Assembly: GCF_000695095.2 (NCBI RefSeq)
Contig: NZ_CP011454.1
Coordinates: forward strand, 744,001-808,000
DNA: 64,000 nt
Direction of reading: 5' to 3'
From: Gemmatimonas phototrophica
GTDB taxonomy: Bacteria > Gemmatimonadota > Gemmatimonadetes > Gemmatimonadales > Gemmatimonadaceae
Under the pieces are notes generated by a model that saw only the letters and a program-made list of their open reading frames with translations, made no database searches and was not told the DNA's origin. The translations under genes and the position numbers were made by a program. Position 1 is the first letter of the stretch, and the number at the start of each line of letters is the position of its first letter. This document shows, one piece after another, positions 7,197 to 61,260 of this stretch.

Positions 7197-7378
7197 GACC
7201 CGGAACCCGAACGCGCGATTCAGAACTGATCAGTTCTGGGTCATGAGTTCGGGTTTTGAGTTTTGGGTTGGACTGCGGTTCAACCGTCGACCCGAAACTC
7301 GAACCCAGAACCCAGAACCCAAAACTGATCAGTTCCGGGTTGTGAGTTCGGGTGTTGAGTTTTGAGTTGCTCATCCGT
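7197..7378. repeat. Intergenic repeat family 3, two tandem hairpins centred on TGATCA
   Basis: Two successive imperfect palindromes, each centred on AACTGATCAGTT (about 7227-7238 and 7325-7336). The arms are degenerate runs of AACCCAGA / CCCGAACTC on one side and their complements on the other. The spacing and position after ctaF suggest a role as a transcript end or a stable 3' hairpin, but there is no clean U-run. Related copies lie near 40.6, 47.0, 61.2 and, in modified form, 62.25 kb. Confidence 0.7.
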
Positions 7379-13048: not shown

Positions 13049-13124
13049 GGGGAGGCGTTGTTCGACCAGTTCCGGGCCGTCAACCCAAACATGGGGGTCA
13101 GTCGCGAGCGGGGTTGGAACGGCC

Positions 13125-13220
13125 TTACGAGGACTGCTCCGTGCGGGTGGAGAGAGCGTCTTGTCGAAGACTGGCCCCGGCATGAGTCGAGCGGCGTAGT
13201 GCAGCCGCACGGTTGTTCAT
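13125..13220 (-). CDS. Candidate 31-residue microprotein of family 1, right-type frame
   Basis: A 31-codon open frame from ATG to TAA with THAGASLRQDALSTRTEQSS as its last 20 residues. Right-type frames of the same length, from ATG to TAA and ending EQSS, occur three times at 54.2-54.9 kb, and a homologue with a lost stop lies at 34.9 kb. In a hand comparison with the 54239 copy there are 23 base differences, 12 of them at third codon positions, a mild sign of protein-level constraint. No ribosome site precedes the ATG. The frame could be open only because the repeat itself is conserved, so translation is unproven. Confidence 0.3.
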   Translation of the reverse strand: MNNRAAALRRSTHAGASLRQDALSTRTEQSS

Positions 13221-13227
13221 TTTTTGA

Positions 13228-13323
13228 ATGATTGAATGCCAGGAGGTGGAGAGTGGCTGTCGCTTCCACCGTCGCCGTCCTCGTTTGAACGCCGTGTCAC
13301 AACACACGGACCAGTCCTCGTAA
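13228..13323 (+). CDS. Candidate 31-residue microprotein of family 1, left-type frame
   Basis: The mirror frame of copy A: ATG at 13228, seven bases from the opposite start, ending TAA at 13323, again 31 codons. It reads MIECQEVESGC at the start and ends TDQSS. The left-type frames at 34.8 and 54.2 kb have ATT in place of this ATG and read ILDxEEVES, so only copy A has a standard start codon. The C-terminal half resembles the right-type peptide because the arms of the element are inverted repeats. A perfect AGGAGG lies inside the frame at 13251, not before it, which argues against translation from this ATG. Confidence 0.2.
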   Translation: MIECQEVESGCRFHRRRPRLNAVSQHTDQSS

Positions 13324-13395
13324 GGCAGTTGTGCGGTGCCGGCCCACACACCAGTGCCGGTTGCGGCACCGCCGCCCTGCTGCCGGCTCCCCGAT

Positions 13396-28211: not shown

Positions 28212-28603
28212 TCAGATCTGAGAATCAGCGGTGAGAGCGTTGCGAGTTCCGAGGTGCGATGGATATCGAATGTGAGAATGCCAGACAACTACGACAATGC
28301 GAAGTTCGAGTGCTTACGTCCGCACTTTCTTGCCCCCCCGGACGCCGCTGGCACAGCGGCCCTCCCCGCCGTTACCCCAAGCCCGTGTGGGGCACGGAAG
28401 CGCAGACGCCAGCACTCGGACCCCTCACCTCGCTGTCATCGCGCCTCTCACACTCGATATCCATCGCACCGCTCGACTCGCAACGCTCTCCCTTCTCCGT
28501 CCCACCTCGGTAGGCGCCGTTGCCGGAAGGGGCGCCTGCCTGTCCCGGAAACCCTCCGCCGTTACCCCGTGTCAGATGGTCAAACGTCTTACACGAGGCT
28601 TTC
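28212..28603. repeat. Family 2 palindromic element, complete copy
   Basis: Bases 28229-28500 hold a full two-armed copy. The left arm includes GAGAGCGTTGCGAG and GAGGTGCGATGGATATCGAA; the right arm includes CTCGATATCCATCGCACC and CGACTCGCAACGCTCTC. The roughly 140-base middle has its own small hairpins (GCCGCTGGCACAGCGGC at 28344-28360 and CCCCAAGCCCGTGTGGGG). No frame is conserved between copies, so it is probably not coding. A GAGG ribosome site of the next gene lies at 28594. Confidence 0.75.
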
Positions 28604-29848: not shown

Positions 29849-29931
29849 AGGGAGCAGGGAGCAGGACGCAGGGGGCAGGGAGCAGAATCAACATCTGCCT
29901 CCTGTCCCCTGCGTCGTGCTTCCTGCCCCCT
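29849..29931. repeat. Long imperfect hairpin of GCAGG words
   Basis: The left arm GGGAGCAGGGAGCAGGACGC continues into CAGGGGGCAGGGAGCA, and after an 11-base loop pairs with TGCCTCCTGTCCCCTGCGTC and the following GTGCTTCCTGCCCCC. The stem is over 30 bases long with a few mismatches. It lies 45 bases after the PDZ gene and may end that transcript. The rest of the gap up to 30072 holds the promoter for the RND operon; nothing else is seen there. Confidence 0.65.
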
Positions 29932-34586: not shown

Positions 34587-34597
34587 CATGACCTGCG

Positions 34598-35012
34598 TTC
34601 AAGAATGCAAAAACGAACAGCCCCGAGGCAACTGTACGCCGCCCGACTCATGCCGGAGGCCGTCCTCGTCTGGACGCCCCATCCGCCCACACGGAGCAGT
34701 CCTCGTTCAGCAGTTCCAGCCCCACTCGCCCCCCGCACTGGCGTGAGGGCCAGCAAACAGCAACGGCCTTACGAGGACTGTCCCGTGGCAGCCGACAGGG
34801 AGTCTGACCGAGGACTGCGACGATGTGTGCGACGAGCACTCTCCACCTCCTCAAAATCCAAAATCGAAAAAATGGACAACGTCGCGGCTGCAGTACGCTG
34901 CCCGACTCATGCCGGAGCCAGTCCTCGGTTGGACGCTCCGTCCGCCCACACGGAGCAGTCCTCGGAATGCAGTTCCAGCCCCACTCGCGACAGGCACTCT
35001 CCACCAGCTTGA
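34598..35012. repeat. Family 1 elements, copies B (half) and C (complete)
   Basis: Copy B (about 34600-34735) is only the right half: CATGCCGGAGGCCGTCCTCG, then ACACGGAGCAGTCCTCG. It lacks the left arm and the TAA. Copy C (34745-35000) is complete. It has left outer end GGCCTTACGAGGACTG, the conserved central AAAATCCAAAATCGAAAAAA and right end CACGGAGCAGTCCTCG. The flank CAGCAAACAGCAAC before copy C is also found before the 54.1 kb array. The element fills most of the 550-base gap between the RND terminator and the PAS kinase gene. Confidence 0.75.
34872..35012 (+). CDS. Candidate microprotein of family 1, right-type frame with lost stop
   Basis: This frame begins ATGGACAAC in copy C and reads HAGASPRLDAPSAHTEQSS, matching the right-type peptide at 13.1 and 54 kb. 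The usual TAA is replaced by GAA, so the frame continues for another 15 codons to 35012. The lost stop suggests that this copy is either not translated or decaying. No ribosome site is visible before the ATG. Confidence 0.2.
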   Translation: MDNVAAAVRCPTHAGASPRLDAPSAHTEQSSECSSSPTRDRHSPPA

Positions 35013-40544: not shown

Positions 40545-40693
40545 GCAGCCCCTGCCAACGGCCATCTGTGTGGCTGCCGTCTGCCGTCTTGCGGTTTCGC
40601 ACAAACCCAACACCCAAAACACAAACCCACGACCCAAAACTGATCAGTTCCGGGTCGTGGGTTCGAGTTACGGGTCGTGAGTATTCGTAAGCC
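40545..40693. repeat. Convergent gap with family 4 and family 3 repeats
   Basis: Bases 40555-40600 contain the family 4 words GGCCATCTGTGTGGCTGCCG. Bases 40600-40690 are a family 3 palindrome centred on AACTGATCAGTT (40638-40649) with ACCCACGACCCAA on one side and CGGGTCGTGGGTTCGAG on the other. The gap lies between convergent genes, so the hairpin may end both transcripts. Confidence 0.7.
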
Positions 40694-46918: not shown

Positions 46919-47083
46919 ATATGCGTTAGTAGAAACTGAAAACTCAAAACTCCAACTGAAAACTCAAAACTCCAACTGAAAACTCAAAAGTGATCAGTTG
47001 CCGCTTTTGCAACCCAAACCCAAGACTCGAAACTGATCAGTTCCGGGTTCTGGGTTCGAGTAATGAGTCGTGAGTCAACAGCC
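46919..47083. repeat. Family 3 repeat between the TolC-like and EmrA genes
   Basis: The 165-base gap holds three direct copies of AACTGAAAACTCAAAA-type words (46936-46990). Next comes a GTGATCAGTT and then a full palindrome centred on AACTGATCAGTT near 47031-47042 with flanking ACCCAAGACTCGA / CCGGGTTCTGGGTTCGAG. The hairpins lie inside an operon, so they may weaken or process the transcript between tolC-like and emrA. Confidence 0.65.
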
Positions 47084-52170: not shown

Positions 52171-52242
52171 TCAGGCACAACCCAGCTGTCAGGCACAACC
52201 CAGCTGTCAGGCACAAACCCGCTGTCAGGCACAAACCAGCTG
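52171..52242. repeat. Four tandem copies of an 18-base unit
   Basis: The unit TCAGGCACAACCCAGCTG is repeated four times (starting at 52171, 52189, 52207 and 52225), the first two identical and the last two slightly changed. It lies just past the polX stop. It encodes nothing convincing in either direction. Copy number may vary among strains. The rest of the 205-base gap (52050-52170) shows only a short AGCTGAGG duplication. Confidence 0.85.
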
Positions 52243-52253
52243 GCCACCGCCCT

Positions 52254-54035
52254 CTACACCACCCGCAGTCGCGCCGGGCTCAACGACGTCACACCGGCAC
52301 CACTGCGCCGCGCCGCCGCAAAGGCCATGACCTCTTCGGCAGACCGGGTATTGAGCACGTTTGTCGCCGAGAGCCAGCCTTTGCGCGCAACGGCCACGCC
52401 GAGTTCGAGGTTGTCGAACCCCTGCGGCGAATGGGCGTCGGGACCGATGCTTACCATCGCGCCCTTTTCGGCGGCAATGCGGCAGGCGCGCCAATCAATG
52501 TCGAGTCGATGCGGGTCGGCGTTGAGCTCAATCGCCACCCCCACCTGCGCCGCCTTCTCCATAATAGGCTCGAGGTTGATGGCGTACGGCTCACGCGTGA
52601 GCAGCAGCCGCCCCGTGGGGTGTCCCAAAATGGTGAGATGCGGATCGTCGAGCGCCTTGAGTACGCGGTTGGTCATCTGCTCCGCGTTCATGCCGTAGCG
52701 CGTGTGCACCGACCCGATCACGAAATCAAAGTGATCGAGAAACGCCGCGTCGTAGTCCACGCGCCCGCAGGGGAGAATGTCGGCCTCGATCCCCTTGAGC
52801 ACTCGGAATGCCAACCCTTCAGCGGCGAACGACGCGTTCAGTGCATCGATTTCGGCGTGCTGCTCCAGAATACGATCGCGCGACAGACCGCCGGCGTAAG
52901 TGTTGGACTGCGAGTGATCGCTCACCCCCAGATAGCGCAGACCGCGCGCATACGCGGCGCGCGACATCTGCTCAATGGTGGCCGCCCCGTCGCTGTACTG
53001 CGAATGACAGTGCAACGCCCCGCGCAAATCGTGCTCCTGCACCAGCAGGGGCAGGGCCCCACGCGCCGCCGCCTCCACTTCACCCGCTGCCTCGCGCTGC
53101 TCGGGGGGCACGTAGCTCATGTTCAGCTGTTCGTACAGCGCCTGTTCGGTGGCAATGCTCACCACCGCACCATCGGCGTCGCGCAGTTCGTCGTTGGTGA
53201 GCGTAAAGCCCAACGTGGCGGCGCGCTCGGTGACCTGCTTTACGTGCGCCATGCTCCCGGTCGCGCGCCAGAGCGCCAGCGCAAACTGTTCGGGCCGCAC
53301 ACAGGCCAGGTCTACCCGCACACCATTGTCGAGCCGCAACGCCAGCGAACGTCCGCCGCCGCCAAACACTTCCTTCACGCCACGCAGCTGCGCCAGCGAC
53401 GCCGCCACAATGCTGGGGGACCCGCGCACCGCCGCCACGATATCCACGTCGCGCACAATCTCCATGCGGCGACGAATACTGCCGGCAATGGCGAGCTCCA
53501 GCACATCGGCATGGTCGCGCAGCGCATCGGCCACACGCTCGGCTTCCGCGCGCGCATGCTGCCAGAGCACATACGCGCCCGTGGCCCGCAAATCGGCCAA
53601 CCCCTTGAGCACCTTGTCGGCCGTACGCGCCCCGAACTTGGGGAGCGCCGCCAACCGGCCGTCCTGCGCCGCCTGCTCGAGCTCCTGCAGCGAATCAATG
53701 TGCAGATTGTCGTGAATGGAGCGAATGCGCGCCGGGCCCAACCCCGGCACCCGCAGCATCTCCATGAGCCCTTCCGGAGTCTCCTCCTGCAAGCGCTCCA
53801 GCAGCGACGAGCTGTTGCTCTCGGCGAGGTCACGCAGCACCTCCAGCGCCGCCGGCGCGAGGGCATCGGGCCCGGCCAGCTCCCGCCGCAGCGCCTCCGG
53901 CAATTCGCGCTCACCCAGCGCCGCCGTAGACCGCGCCGCCAACTGCATGGCCTTCACGGTAAACGTGTCTTCGCCGTGCAACTCGAGAAGCACGGCAATC
54001 TGATTCAACGCGTGACCAGCGGAGCGGCAATCCAT
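52254..54035 (-). CDS. polX: DNA polymerase/3'-5' exonuclease PolX
   Basis: A 593-residue family X polymerase fused to a PHP domain, used in DNA gap repair. The N-terminal 8-kDa-like region starts ALNQIAVLLELHGEDTFTVK. A helix-hairpin-helix with VPGLGPARIRSIHDNLHIDS follows, then the polymerase motif AGSIRRRMEIVRDVDIVAAV with its two catalytic Asp residues. The PHP domain (about residues 330-590) carries metal-ligand motifs HCHSQYSDG, GVSDHS, GIEADIL, GSVHTRYG, GHPTGR and NADPHR. This is the standard bacterial PolX architecture with a normal length. Confidence 0.95.
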   Translation of the reverse strand: MDCRSAGHALNQIAVLLELHGEDTFTVKAMQLAARSTAALGERELPEALRRELAGPDALAPAALEVLRDLAESNSSSLLERLQEETPEGLMEMLRVPGLGPARIRSIHDNLHIDSLQELEQAAQDGRLAALPKFGARTADKVLKGLADLRATGAYVLWQHARAEAERVADALRDHADVLELAIAGSIRRRMEIVRDVDIVAAVRGSPSIVAASLAQLRGVKEVFGGGGRSLALRLDNGVRVDLACVRPEQFALALWRATGSMAHVKQVTERAATLGFTLTNDELRDADGAVVSIATEQALYEQLNMSYVPPEQREAAGEVEAAARGALPLLVQEHDLRGALHCHSQYSDGAATIEQMSRAAYARGLRYLGVSDHSQSNTYAGGLSRDRILEQHAEIDALNASFAAEGLAFRVLKGIEADILPCGRVDYDAAFLDHFDFVIGSVHTRYGMNAEQMTNRVLKALDDPHLTILGHPTGRLLLTREPYAINLEPIMEKAAQVGVAIELNADPHRLDIDWRACRIAAEKGAMVSIGPDAHSPQGFDNLELGVAVARKGWLSATNVLNTRSAEEVMAFAAARRSGAGVTSLSPARLRVV

Positions 54036-54238
54036 GTCCCAAATCTACCTGAAGCCACGCACATCTGGGAGCGCAACCACTCGTGTCGAGGTCAGCCACA
54101 TGGACCAGTGTCGCGGCTGGCAAACAGCAACAGCTTTACGAGGACTGGCCCGTGTAGCTGGACAGGGCGTCCAAACAAGGACTGTGACGGTGAAGGCGAC
54201 CAAGACTCTCCACCTCCTCACGATCCAAAATCCCAAAA

Positions 54239-54334
54239 ATGAATCACCTCGCCGAAGCGGTACGCCGCTGGAATCATGCCGGCGCCAGTCCTCGTCTGGA
54301 CGCCCTGTCCGCCCCATCGGAACAGTCCTCGTAA
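54239..54334 (+). CDS. Candidate 31-residue microprotein, array copy D
   Basis: ATG to TAA in 31 codons, starting MNHLAEAVRRWNHAGA and ending PSEQSS. It is one of three near-identical frames in the array, and the frame at 13220 (minus) is a diverged homologue of the same length. No ribosome site precedes the ATG; the upstream sequence is CCAAAATCCCAAAA. Another frame on the opposite strand (WRVLVAFTVTVLVWTPC) is also open and preceded by AGGAGG, so coding cannot be assigned by openness alone. Confidence 0.3.
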   Translation: MNHLAEAVRRWNHAGASPRLDALSAPSEQSS

Positions 54335-54497
54335 GGCAGTTCCACTCCAGCTCGCGACTCCCACCGGTGCATGGATTGGCACCGATCAACTGCATGACGA
54401 GGACTGCCCCGTGCAATTGGACAGGGCGTCCAAACGAGGACTGTGACGGTGAAGGCGACCAAGACTCTCCACCTCCTCACGATCCAAAATCCCAAAA

Positions 54498-54593
54498 ATG
54501 AATCACCTCGCCGAAGCGGTACGCCGCTGGAATCATGCCGGAGCCAGTCCTCGTTTGAACGCCCTGTCCGCTCAAACGGAGCAGTCCTCGTAA
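54498..54593 (+). CDS. Candidate 31-residue microprotein, array copy E
   Basis: The second array copy, again exactly 31 codons and ending QTEQSS. It differs from copy D by only a few residues (Asn for Asp in LNALSAQT). The mirror frame of this copy has lost its TAA (TCA in its place) and runs two codons further before TGA. Confidence 0.3.
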   Translation: MNHLAEAVRRWNHAGASPRLNALSAQTEQSS

Positions 54594-54756
54594 GGCAGTT
54601 CCACTCCAGCTCGCGACTCGCACCGGTGCATGGATTGGCACCGATCAACTGCATGACGAGGACTACCCCGTGCAATTGGACAGGGCGTCCAAACGAGGAC
54701 TGTGACGGTGAAGGCGACCAAGACTCTCCACCTCCTCACGATCCAAAATCCCAAAA

Positions 54757-54852
54757 ATGAATCACCTCGCCGAAGCGGTACGCCGCTGGAGTCATGCCGG
54801 AGCCAGTCCTCGTCTGGACGCCCCGTCCGCCCAACCGGAGCAGTCCTCGTAA
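54757..54852 (+). CDS. Candidate 31-residue microprotein, array copy F
   Basis: The third array copy, 31 codons, with RRWSHAGASPRLDAPSAQ and ending PEQSS. The differences from copies D and E are single codon changes. As with the others, translation is not supported by a ribosome site. Confidence 0.3.
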   Translation: MNHLAEAVRRWSHAGASPRLDAPSAQPEQSS

Positions 54853-54948
54853 GGCAGTTGCGGTTCAACCCAAGCCGGCCTACGGAGCGGTCTTCGTGAT
54901 GCCGTTTCGACGCGGCCAACCACCAATGCCGCCGTCGAGGATGCACGC

Positions 54949-55404
54949 CTAGTTCTCGACCCCCGCCAGGTGCTTCATTTGCACGACCAGTTCCAGCATT
55001 TGCGCTTCCGTCAGTTCCATTTCCTGGTGCGCCGCTTCGGCGTCGAGCAGTCCTGTGCGCATGCTCACGCCCACCTGGTTCATGTAGCGCACTTTGGCCA
55101 GCACTTCGAGCGTGATCTGCCGCAGCCCGTGGTAACGACGCTTTTCGGCGTTGGCGCGGCGGTAGCGCTGCGCCAGCTCCTCCGGTTGCAGATCTCTTAC
55201 CAGTCCCAGCACGTCATCAATGGATCGGCCGGGGAAATTGGCGCGGTCGGGAATGCCGCTGTTGCTCCATCCGCTTTCGGCAAAGAACAGTCGCCCCACA
55301 AACTCAATGCCATCGTGCGCCGTGTGCAGCGTGACGCGCACATCGCGCCCATCCACCGTGATGGTTGAGAGTGGCGTCAGGGTAACGGGGCCGAAAGGAA
55401 CCAT
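54949..55404 (-). CDS. Conserved-looking protein of unknown function downstream of the peptidase
   Basis: A 151-residue soluble protein I do not recognise. The first half looks like beta structure (VTLTPLSTITVDGRDVRVTL and FVGRLFFAESGW); the second is helical and charged (QRYRRANAEKRRYHGLRQIT and a final MELTEAQMLELVVQMKHLAG). No signal peptide or metal motif is seen. It lies 15 bases after the alpha/beta hydrolase gene on the same strand, so the two are probably co-transcribed. Confidence 0.75.
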   Translation of the reverse strand: MVPFGPVTLTPLSTITVDGRDVRVTLHTAHDGIEFVGRLFFAESGWSNSGIPDRANFPGRSIDDVLGLVRDLQPEELAQRYRRANAEKRRYHGLRQITLEVLAKVRYMNQVGVSMRTGLLDAEAAHQEMELTEAQMLELVVQMKHLAGVEN

Positions 55405-58029: not shown

Positions 58030-58335
58030 GGGGCCAGCTTGCGATGTCAGAATCAGAAGTCAGATGGGCGACGATCGAGATTGCGATGGATATCGACTGT
58101 GAGAGGGTCGAGATAACCACGACAATGAGCGGTCCGAGCACTTCATCCTCTCGGGGAGTGCCCCACACGGGCTTCTGGTAACGGCGGGGACGACCGCTGT
58201 TCCAGCGGCGTCCGTGGGGGGCACATCCGTGCGGAGGCAACTACTCGGACCTCTCAACTCGCTTTCATCGGGCCTCTCACATTCGATATCCATCGCACAT
58301 TCGGGCATCACACCTCTGATTCTCAACTCAGAAGT
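58030..58335. repeat. Family 2 palindromic element, complete copy
   Basis: The left arm carries TGCGATGGATATCGACTGTG and the right arm CACATTCGATATCCATCGCA. The middle has a stem pairing GTGCCCCACACGGG with the distant GTGGGGGGCAC, plus GACCGCTGTTCCAGCGGCGTC. Outer ends carry CAGAATCAGAAGTCAGA and its inverse TCTGATTCTCAACTCAGAAG. The element lies between convergent genes and may end both transcripts. Confidence 0.75.
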
Positions 58336-59859: not shown

Positions 59860-60075
59860 ACGACGAGGTCAGAGCGTTGCGAGTCGCGAGGTGCGATGGA
59901 TATCGAATGTGAGAGTGTCGAGATACCTATGACGATGAGAGGTCCGAGTAGGTGCCTCCGCACGTCTGTACCCCTCACGGATGCCGCTGGCCGCAGTCTC
60001 CGCCGTTACTCGGTAACCCGATAACCCATAACCCATAACGCCGTTTCCATCGCAACTCGCAACGCTCAGATCTCA
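59860..60075. repeat. Family 2 element, left arm with a shortened right arm
   Basis: The left arm is typical (AGAGCGTTGCGAGTCGCGAG, GCGATGGATATCGAATGTGA, CTATGACGATGAGAGGTCCG). The right arm is mostly replaced by the segment TTACTCGGTAACCCGATAAC, then CCATAACCCATAACGCCG, which is also found inverted at 9277-9318. Only CGCAACTCGCAACGCTC of the normal right arm remains. CAGATCTCAGATCTCAACTC ends the element. Confidence 0.7.
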
Positions 60076-60079
60076 GATC

Positions 60080-60985
60080 TCAACTCTCAACTTTCACCGC
60101 GTGGTGTGTCTCTACTGGCGAGAACAGCGTCGGCGCAAAGATCGACGCCATCGCTTCTATGCCGTCAACCACGCGCGGTCCCGGTCGTGACGTGAGGCCG
60201 TTCGCGTCGAGCGCCCACACTTGTTTGCCGGCCATCCAGCTCCACTCCGGCAACGTGAGGCAGCGCTTCGCTTCCGCAGTCGCCGCTGCGAGCGAATAGC
60301 CGCAGGGCGCAAAGAGTACGATGTCCGGATCGCCCGCGCGCAGGGCGTCCATGTCGATGGGCGACGAGTGTGTGCCCGCCACGCCCAGCACATCGAGGCC
60401 GCCGGCGCGCGCGATCTGCTCCGGGCCCCAGTGCCCCGCGACGTACAGTGGGTCGGTCCACTCCACCAGCGCCACGCGCGGACGCGGGGCCTGCGCGCCC
60501 TTGAGCGTGAGATGCACATGCTTTACGCGGTCCCGCAATCCGGCCAGCAGTTCATCGGCTTCGTCGCGCATGTCCACCGCATCGGCGACGGCCTGGATAT
60601 CGCCGTAAATGCCGTCGAGTGTTTCGCCCTTGAGCGTCACGACTACCGGCGCCGGCGTGATCTTCGCGGCCAGTGCCCGCACATCGGTCTCACTCACGGC
60701 GCACACATCGCACAGCGCCTGCGTGAGAATCACCGTGGGGTGCAGTGCGGTAATGCGCTTCTCGTCGAGCGTGAAGAGCGCGATGCCCTGATGGTTGTGC
60801 TCACGCACCGCCGCATCAATCGCAGCCGGGTCGTGGGTGTCGGGAATGGCGCTCTTGGTAACCCGCGCCCGCGACCCCACCACATCGGGGTAGTCGCACT
60901 CGTGGGTAATGCCCACGAGATGATCCGTAGCGCCCAGCAGGGCCACAATCTCCGTGGCGGCGGGCAGGAGGGAGACGATTCGCAT
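60080..60985 (-). CDS. Cobalamin-binding-type periplasmic binding domain protein without signal peptide
   Basis: A 301-residue protein of the BtuF/type III binding fold. It opens with MRIVSLLPAATEIVALLGAT and GITHECDYP, and contains the central connecting region with HLTLKGAQAPRPRVALVEWT and the late GVAGTHSSPIDMDALRAGDPD. Homologues bind vitamin B12 or similar corrinoids. There is no signal peptide and no BtuCD transporter gene next to it, so it may act in the cytoplasm or bind another ligand. The C-terminal HHAVKVES is unusual. Confidence 0.85.
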   Translation of the reverse strand: MRIVSLLPAATEIVALLGATDHLVGITHECDYPDVVGSRARVTKSAIPDTHDPAAIDAAVREHNHQGIALFTLDEKRITALHPTVILTQALCDVCAVSETDVRALAAKITPAPVVVTLKGETLDGIYGDIQAVADAVDMRDEADELLAGLRDRVKHVHLTLKGAQAPRPRVALVEWTDPLYVAGHWGPEQIARAGGLDVLGVAGTHSSPIDMDALRAGDPDIVLFAPCGYSLAAATAEAKRCLTLPEWSWMAGKQVWALDANGLTSRPGPRVVDGIEAMASIFAPTLFSPVETHHAVKVES

Positions 60986-61156: not shown

Positions 61157-61260
61157 AGAACTCAGCGCTCAGACTCCAAACGCAAAACCCGAACGCACAA
61201 CCCGGAACTGATCAGTTCCGATTGGTGAGTCAGGGTTTCGAGTCTTGGGTTGAGGCGGCC
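61157..61260. repeat. Family 3 repeat upstream of the PEP-CTERM gene
   Basis: A palindrome centred on AACTGATCAGTT near 61207-61218, with AACCCGAACGCACAACCCGG on one side and a GTGAGTCAGGGTTTCGAG on the other. It separates the B12-type gene from the PEP-CTERM gene's AT-rich promoter. Confidence 0.65.

Follow-up and report, generated by a model that had tools for sequence, protein, structure and literature searches.

The gap between polX and a neighbouring 151-aa gene in Gemmatimonas phototrophica holds three direct units of a palindromic intergenic repeat family that is found at 25 places in the genome. Taken together, the evidence makes it probable that this is an orphan, non-autonomous family that dispersed long ago and later expanded at single loci by recombination or slippage, with its hairpin at gene 3' ends. 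The analysis covered a window of 64,000 bases (genome positions 744001-808000) and the whole 4,716,552-base single contig of the one genome representing the species.

The sequence-only reading had described three almost identical head-to-tail copies at exact 259-base spacing, spanning 54115-54870. The repeat finder and TRF independently confirmed the copies and their spacing (start-to-start distances of 259 and 259 bases), and a three-unit array at 54118-54859 is far above chance expectation. TRF placed the array at 54138-54859, with a period of 259, 2.8 copies, 95% matches, 0% indels and a score of 1325. The copies are highly similar but fall short of near-identity: unit 1 is 92-94% identical to unit 2, and unit 3 is 97% identical to it, depending on the span compared. 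The array is also slightly longer than described: the profile search detected linker-like sequence upstream of unit 1, from near 54091, and a weak right-arm remnant past unit 3, at about 54879-54934. The parts of the array are listed in Table 1. No tRNA, gene or promoter-like site was found in the polX/151-aa gene gap, and the product of the 151-aa gene had no Pfam match. On the other side of polX, downstream of the gene, window positions 52171-52242 carry an 18-base tandem repeat in four copies.

Table 1. Features of the polX-gap array, its flanking genes and the other family loci in the window (window positions).
Feature	Position	Strand	Remark
Single family unit in convergent gene gap	13087..13367	-	
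Second window array, in a convergent gap: right-half unit joined to a full unit by a 64-base linker	34595..34983	+	
PolX-type DNA polymerase, flanking (DNA_pol_B_thumb, PHP, HHH_5)	52254..54035	-	Pfam
Unit 1 (259 bp)	54118..54376	+	repeat finder, TRF
Unit 1 left arm; two direct ACGAGGACTG-type motifs	54129..54184	+	79% complementary to 54286-54341
Unit 1 right arm	54286..54341	+	repeat finder
Linker of units 1/2, 64 bases between conserved arm motifs, outer arm ends included	54333..54396	+	
Unit 2 (259 bp)	54377..54635	+	repeat finder, TRF
Unit 2 left arm	54388..54443	+	84% complementary to 54545-54600
Unit 2 right arm	54545..54600	+	repeat finder
Linker of units 2/3	54592..54655	+	one base off linker 1/2 in 64 bases
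Unit 3 (224 bp; no further full unit after it)	54636..54859	+	97% identical to unit 2
Unit 3 left arm	54647..54702	+	
Unit 3 right arm	54804..54859	+	
Decayed extra right-arm remnant (weak)	54879..54934	+	genome 798879-798934, E = 0.05
151-aa gene, flanking; 3' end toward the array's right end; synteny conserved in congeners	54949..55404	-	

The repeat unit, which has no protein-coding capacity, is a long imperfect palindrome in which two 56-base arms, 79-84% complementary, enclose a 101-base loop, and every arm holds a direct pair of ACGAGGACTG-type motifs. On both strands, folding is far stronger than in shuffles (z of -7.8 and -8.3), and the arm stems are nearly invariant across 26 copies. 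Such folds and stems would suit a gene family amplified from a structured non-coding RNA gene or a cis-regulatory RNA, which we nevertheless consider very improbable: an Rfam search of the unit gave no match even at E up to 1, the family is absent from all congeners, the polX gap showed no promoter-like site, and RNA covariation sought over the 26 copies revealed two-sided change in only 2 of 42 stem pairs. Because compensatory change in the stems is almost lacking, covariation does not support an RNA role for the fold, and recognition of the sequence itself would explain the conserved arms equally well. Cross-pairing between the arm ends of neighbouring units was also checked by eye and, being inconsistent, was set aside.

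A family profile built from the 26 copies was used to search the genome in pieces. About 36 units, fragments counted, were recovered at 25 intergenic loci, dispersed and in both orientations. Eight of these loci are head-to-tail arrays in one register, with linkers of 63-68 bases and, where intact, periods of about 256-262. Linkers of different arrays are alike (0.65-0.79 over the middle 34 bases), and linker-like sequence also occurs in some outer flanks of loci. The earlier claim that the linker was private to the polX-gap array is thus contradicted, since linkers of this length, in the same register, are present at seven further loci and beside a remnant at an eighth. Moreover, partial copies retain the right end: three solo right ends (genome positions 809295, 3658462 and 916518) were found and no left-only copy, and the upstream remnants at several array edges are right-end pieces too. 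A collapsed unit at genome 1113297-1113407 has lost its middle, and its two ends are fused to form one short palindrome.

Full units within an array are 92-98% identical, whereas units at different loci average 79% and reach 90% at most (343 pairs). No pair of loci is recently related, and identity within arrays far exceeds that between loci; this makes dispersal an old event and puts local amplification or homogenisation after it. Recent local amplification, as first proposed for the polX gap, is supported in this relative sense: the units differ by 3-8%, and the site is one of eight such arrays rather than a special case. In the polX-gap array, all 18 differing core columns lie outside core positions 50-144; divergence from units 2 and 3 is greatest in unit 1's left arm, and the three inner loops are identical. 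This pattern could plausibly result from exchange between neighbouring units. Furthermore, within-array differences avoid columns that are conserved at other loci (10/67 against 33% expected, p = 0.001), which suggests that constraint acts on the units in place.

The single register, the exclusively head-to-tail joins of all eight arrays, the solo right ends and the right-end remnants could also be products of insertion as multimers, made on a circular or rolling-circle intermediate whose right end is fixed and whose left end varies, instead of later local duplication. We regard this as unlikely. Profile searches of the genome found neither a Y1/RAYT gene (PF01797; 5 of 14 controls matched) nor a reverse transcriptase gene (PF00078; 3 of 14 controls matched), and a search for Y2/IS91 (Y2_Tnp) matched zero controls and so was uninformative on Y2. 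Shared flank words averaged 5.95 bases, compared with 5.51 in mismatched pairs; target-site duplication was hence not seen in this test, which is a weak one, the element ends not being sharply defined. The divergent left arm and identical inner loop described above fit local exchange better than multimer insertion, and decay at array edges beside selected gene 3' ends could likewise preserve right ends. The bolder proposal, in which a rolling-circle-like or circular-template element leaves arrays as its direct insertion products and is moved by an enzyme type new to palindromic repeats, would be a long shot.

The inverted ends with their paired direct repeats, the dispersed intergenic copies and the restriction to one species are equally features of a classical MITE of a DDE transposon, whose paired motifs would be bound by a transposase acting in trans and whose arrays would arise by adjacent insertion. 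We give this origin an outside chance. When the genome was searched for the end sequence (E up to 10), neither a gene between a pair of ends nor a full-length parent element was found; the same weak test gave no target-site duplication, and independent insertions are not expected to produce a constant register.

The genome encodes an integron integrase (4315487-4316422; E = 1.5e-113), and hairpin arrays recall attC arrays. However, the 40 kb around the integrase contain no family sequence, the loci are scattered and occur in either orientation, and no unit carries a cassette or gene, so the arrangement of attC sites, with repeats beside the integrase and cassettes between them, is not reproduced. 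Misassembly is also an unlikely source of the array because the genome is a single contig, 99.96% complete, and every unit has private differences. An integron attC-type array or an assembly artefact can accordingly be given next to no probability. Near the integrase (locus L121), two possibly attC-like repeat pairs were observed at L121 positions 425-597/4149-4317 and 1207-1330/5569-5693.

The history of the site was then read from relatives. BLAST of 60 related genomes gave no family match, nor did a distant BLAST search of plasmids and phages, and a profile search of 29 congeners returned only weak matches (best E 0.003), which were not accepted. When GTDB was scanned for the pattern GCCGGRGCCAGTCCTCGT, the 62 single matches fell in unrelated genomes and were attributed to chance; viral contigs yielded 8 single matches, which were likewise discarded. 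With the syntenic site placed through a PolX search, polX and the 151-aa gene proved adjacent in 20 congeners, separated by 33-272 bases (median 96), and the gap in all 20 was free of sequence of the window's repeat family. An identical array at the same site in relatives, which would speak against local amplification, is thus missing from these 20 genomes, and the amplification is not refuted. Because the 20 congeners keep the gene order without family sequence, the array was most likely gained in the G. phototrophica lineage; the congener flanks are too diverged for an exact empty site to be read.

In 6 of the 20 congeners, the gap contains a hairpin that folds strongly (z below -3) but is unrelated to the family. 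In the nearest relatives, the element in the gap belongs to a palindromic family dispersed in those genomes (58-67 matches per genome, both palindrome strands counted), and this family had no match in the G. phototrophica genome. Two further observations concern these hairpins. A AGGGAGCAGGG-type hairpin at window 29849-29931 is similar in style to the polX-gap hairpins of some congeners (L153, L156), and in one close relative (L148, genome G006), upstream of polX, a frame beside the hairpin resembles by appearance an integrase-core (rve-like) transposase.

All 25 loci lie in gene gaps, with a gene overlap of no more than 10 bases at two of them. Of 23 loci, 18 have their right end pointing toward the neighbour's 3' end (p = 0.011); in tandem-gene gaps the count is 11 of 13 (p = 0.022). 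This bias is modest, was noticed post hoc and uses gene calls from a simple codon-usage script; most of the neighbour genes have Pfam matches. With respect to replication, 16 of 24 loci were co-oriented, which is not significant (hand count, assuming an origin near position 1). Strong folds were present in 5/5 convergent, 9/18 tandem and 2/4 divergent gaps of the window, and unrelated hairpin families are found in other convergent gaps there.

On the chromosome scale, no family locus lies within 1.42-3.37 Mb. If 25 points were placed at random, a gap of this size would arise with a probability of about 1e-4, although the loci are not independent. This empty zone agrees with the scarcity of repeats published for the terminus region: for G. 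phototrophica, the reported count is 4 repeats within the strand-biased terminus region and 86 in the rest of the genome (PMC11237797). Two other intergenic palindromes were noted in the window. The second family (GCGATGGATATCGA.. arms; 28233-28490, 58060-58319 and 59865-60081) has about 45 genome loci and is nearly absent from 1.42-3.17 Mb. The third group, with centre AACTGATCAGTT and degenerate ACTCAAAACCC-type arms, lies at 7205-7353, 40605-40682, 46955-47075 and 61173-61250.

The account that we favour, old dispersal followed by local expansion, would run as follows. The family is probably an anciently dispersed, non-autonomous element, the enzyme for which has been lost or is yet to be found. 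Single loci would later have expanded, contracted and been homogenised through unequal recombination of neighbouring units or slippage at the palindromes, and the polX-gap locus would have reached three units in this way. The best reading of the sequence comparisons is that the family is now quiet in dispersal and expanding locally. Less firmly, its hairpin probably acts at gene 3' ends, and the element might persist there if long hairpins in that position are tolerated, or are of use in ending or stabilising transcripts. The family thereby offers a clear case, outside REP/RAYT, in which dispersed palindromic intergenic repeats have gone on to amplify in tandem with a constant register. In addition, the polX gap is bare in most of the Gemmatimonas species examined and contains unrelated long hairpins in at least seven, G. 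phototrophica included; this makes it possible to test whether selection favours long hairpins at 3' ends, with any available repeat family serving as their source.

Among known systems, MITEs share with the family a short, non-coding form, inverted ends and dispersal between genes. The arrays of constant register differ from them, and the family is not classed as a proven MITE because no parent transposon was found and no target-site duplication was seen in the weak test. REPs are defined as imperfect palindromes of 20-40 bases, typically tagged GTAG or CGTC (PMC3733652); no GTAG tag was identified in the family units. The CGTC-tagged REPs are likewise dispersed, dimer-forming palindromes without a dedicated transposase, but their stems measure 8-9 bp and their loops 4-5, compared with the 56-base arms and 101-base loop here, and head-to-tail arrays, common in this family, are rare among them (PMC3733652). 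The repeats of PMC11237797 share the terminus scarcity, and the sections of that work concerning them give counts and lengths, not structure, arrays or linkers. In organisation, the family most resembles BIME-2 of Escherichia coli, in which bacterial interspersed mosaic elements built from REP pairs stand in tandem; BIMEs are described as length-variable between strains, and a role in transcription termination has been proposed for them (PMC2817692). Both are extragenic, species-specific and multicopy, with inverted palindromic modules in tandem and recurring linkers. The family is nevertheless not filed as REP/BIME because its 56-base arms, in a 259-base unit, exceed the REP size and the genome lacks a cognate RAYT (Y1). 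It is a new variant among palindromic intergenic repeats.
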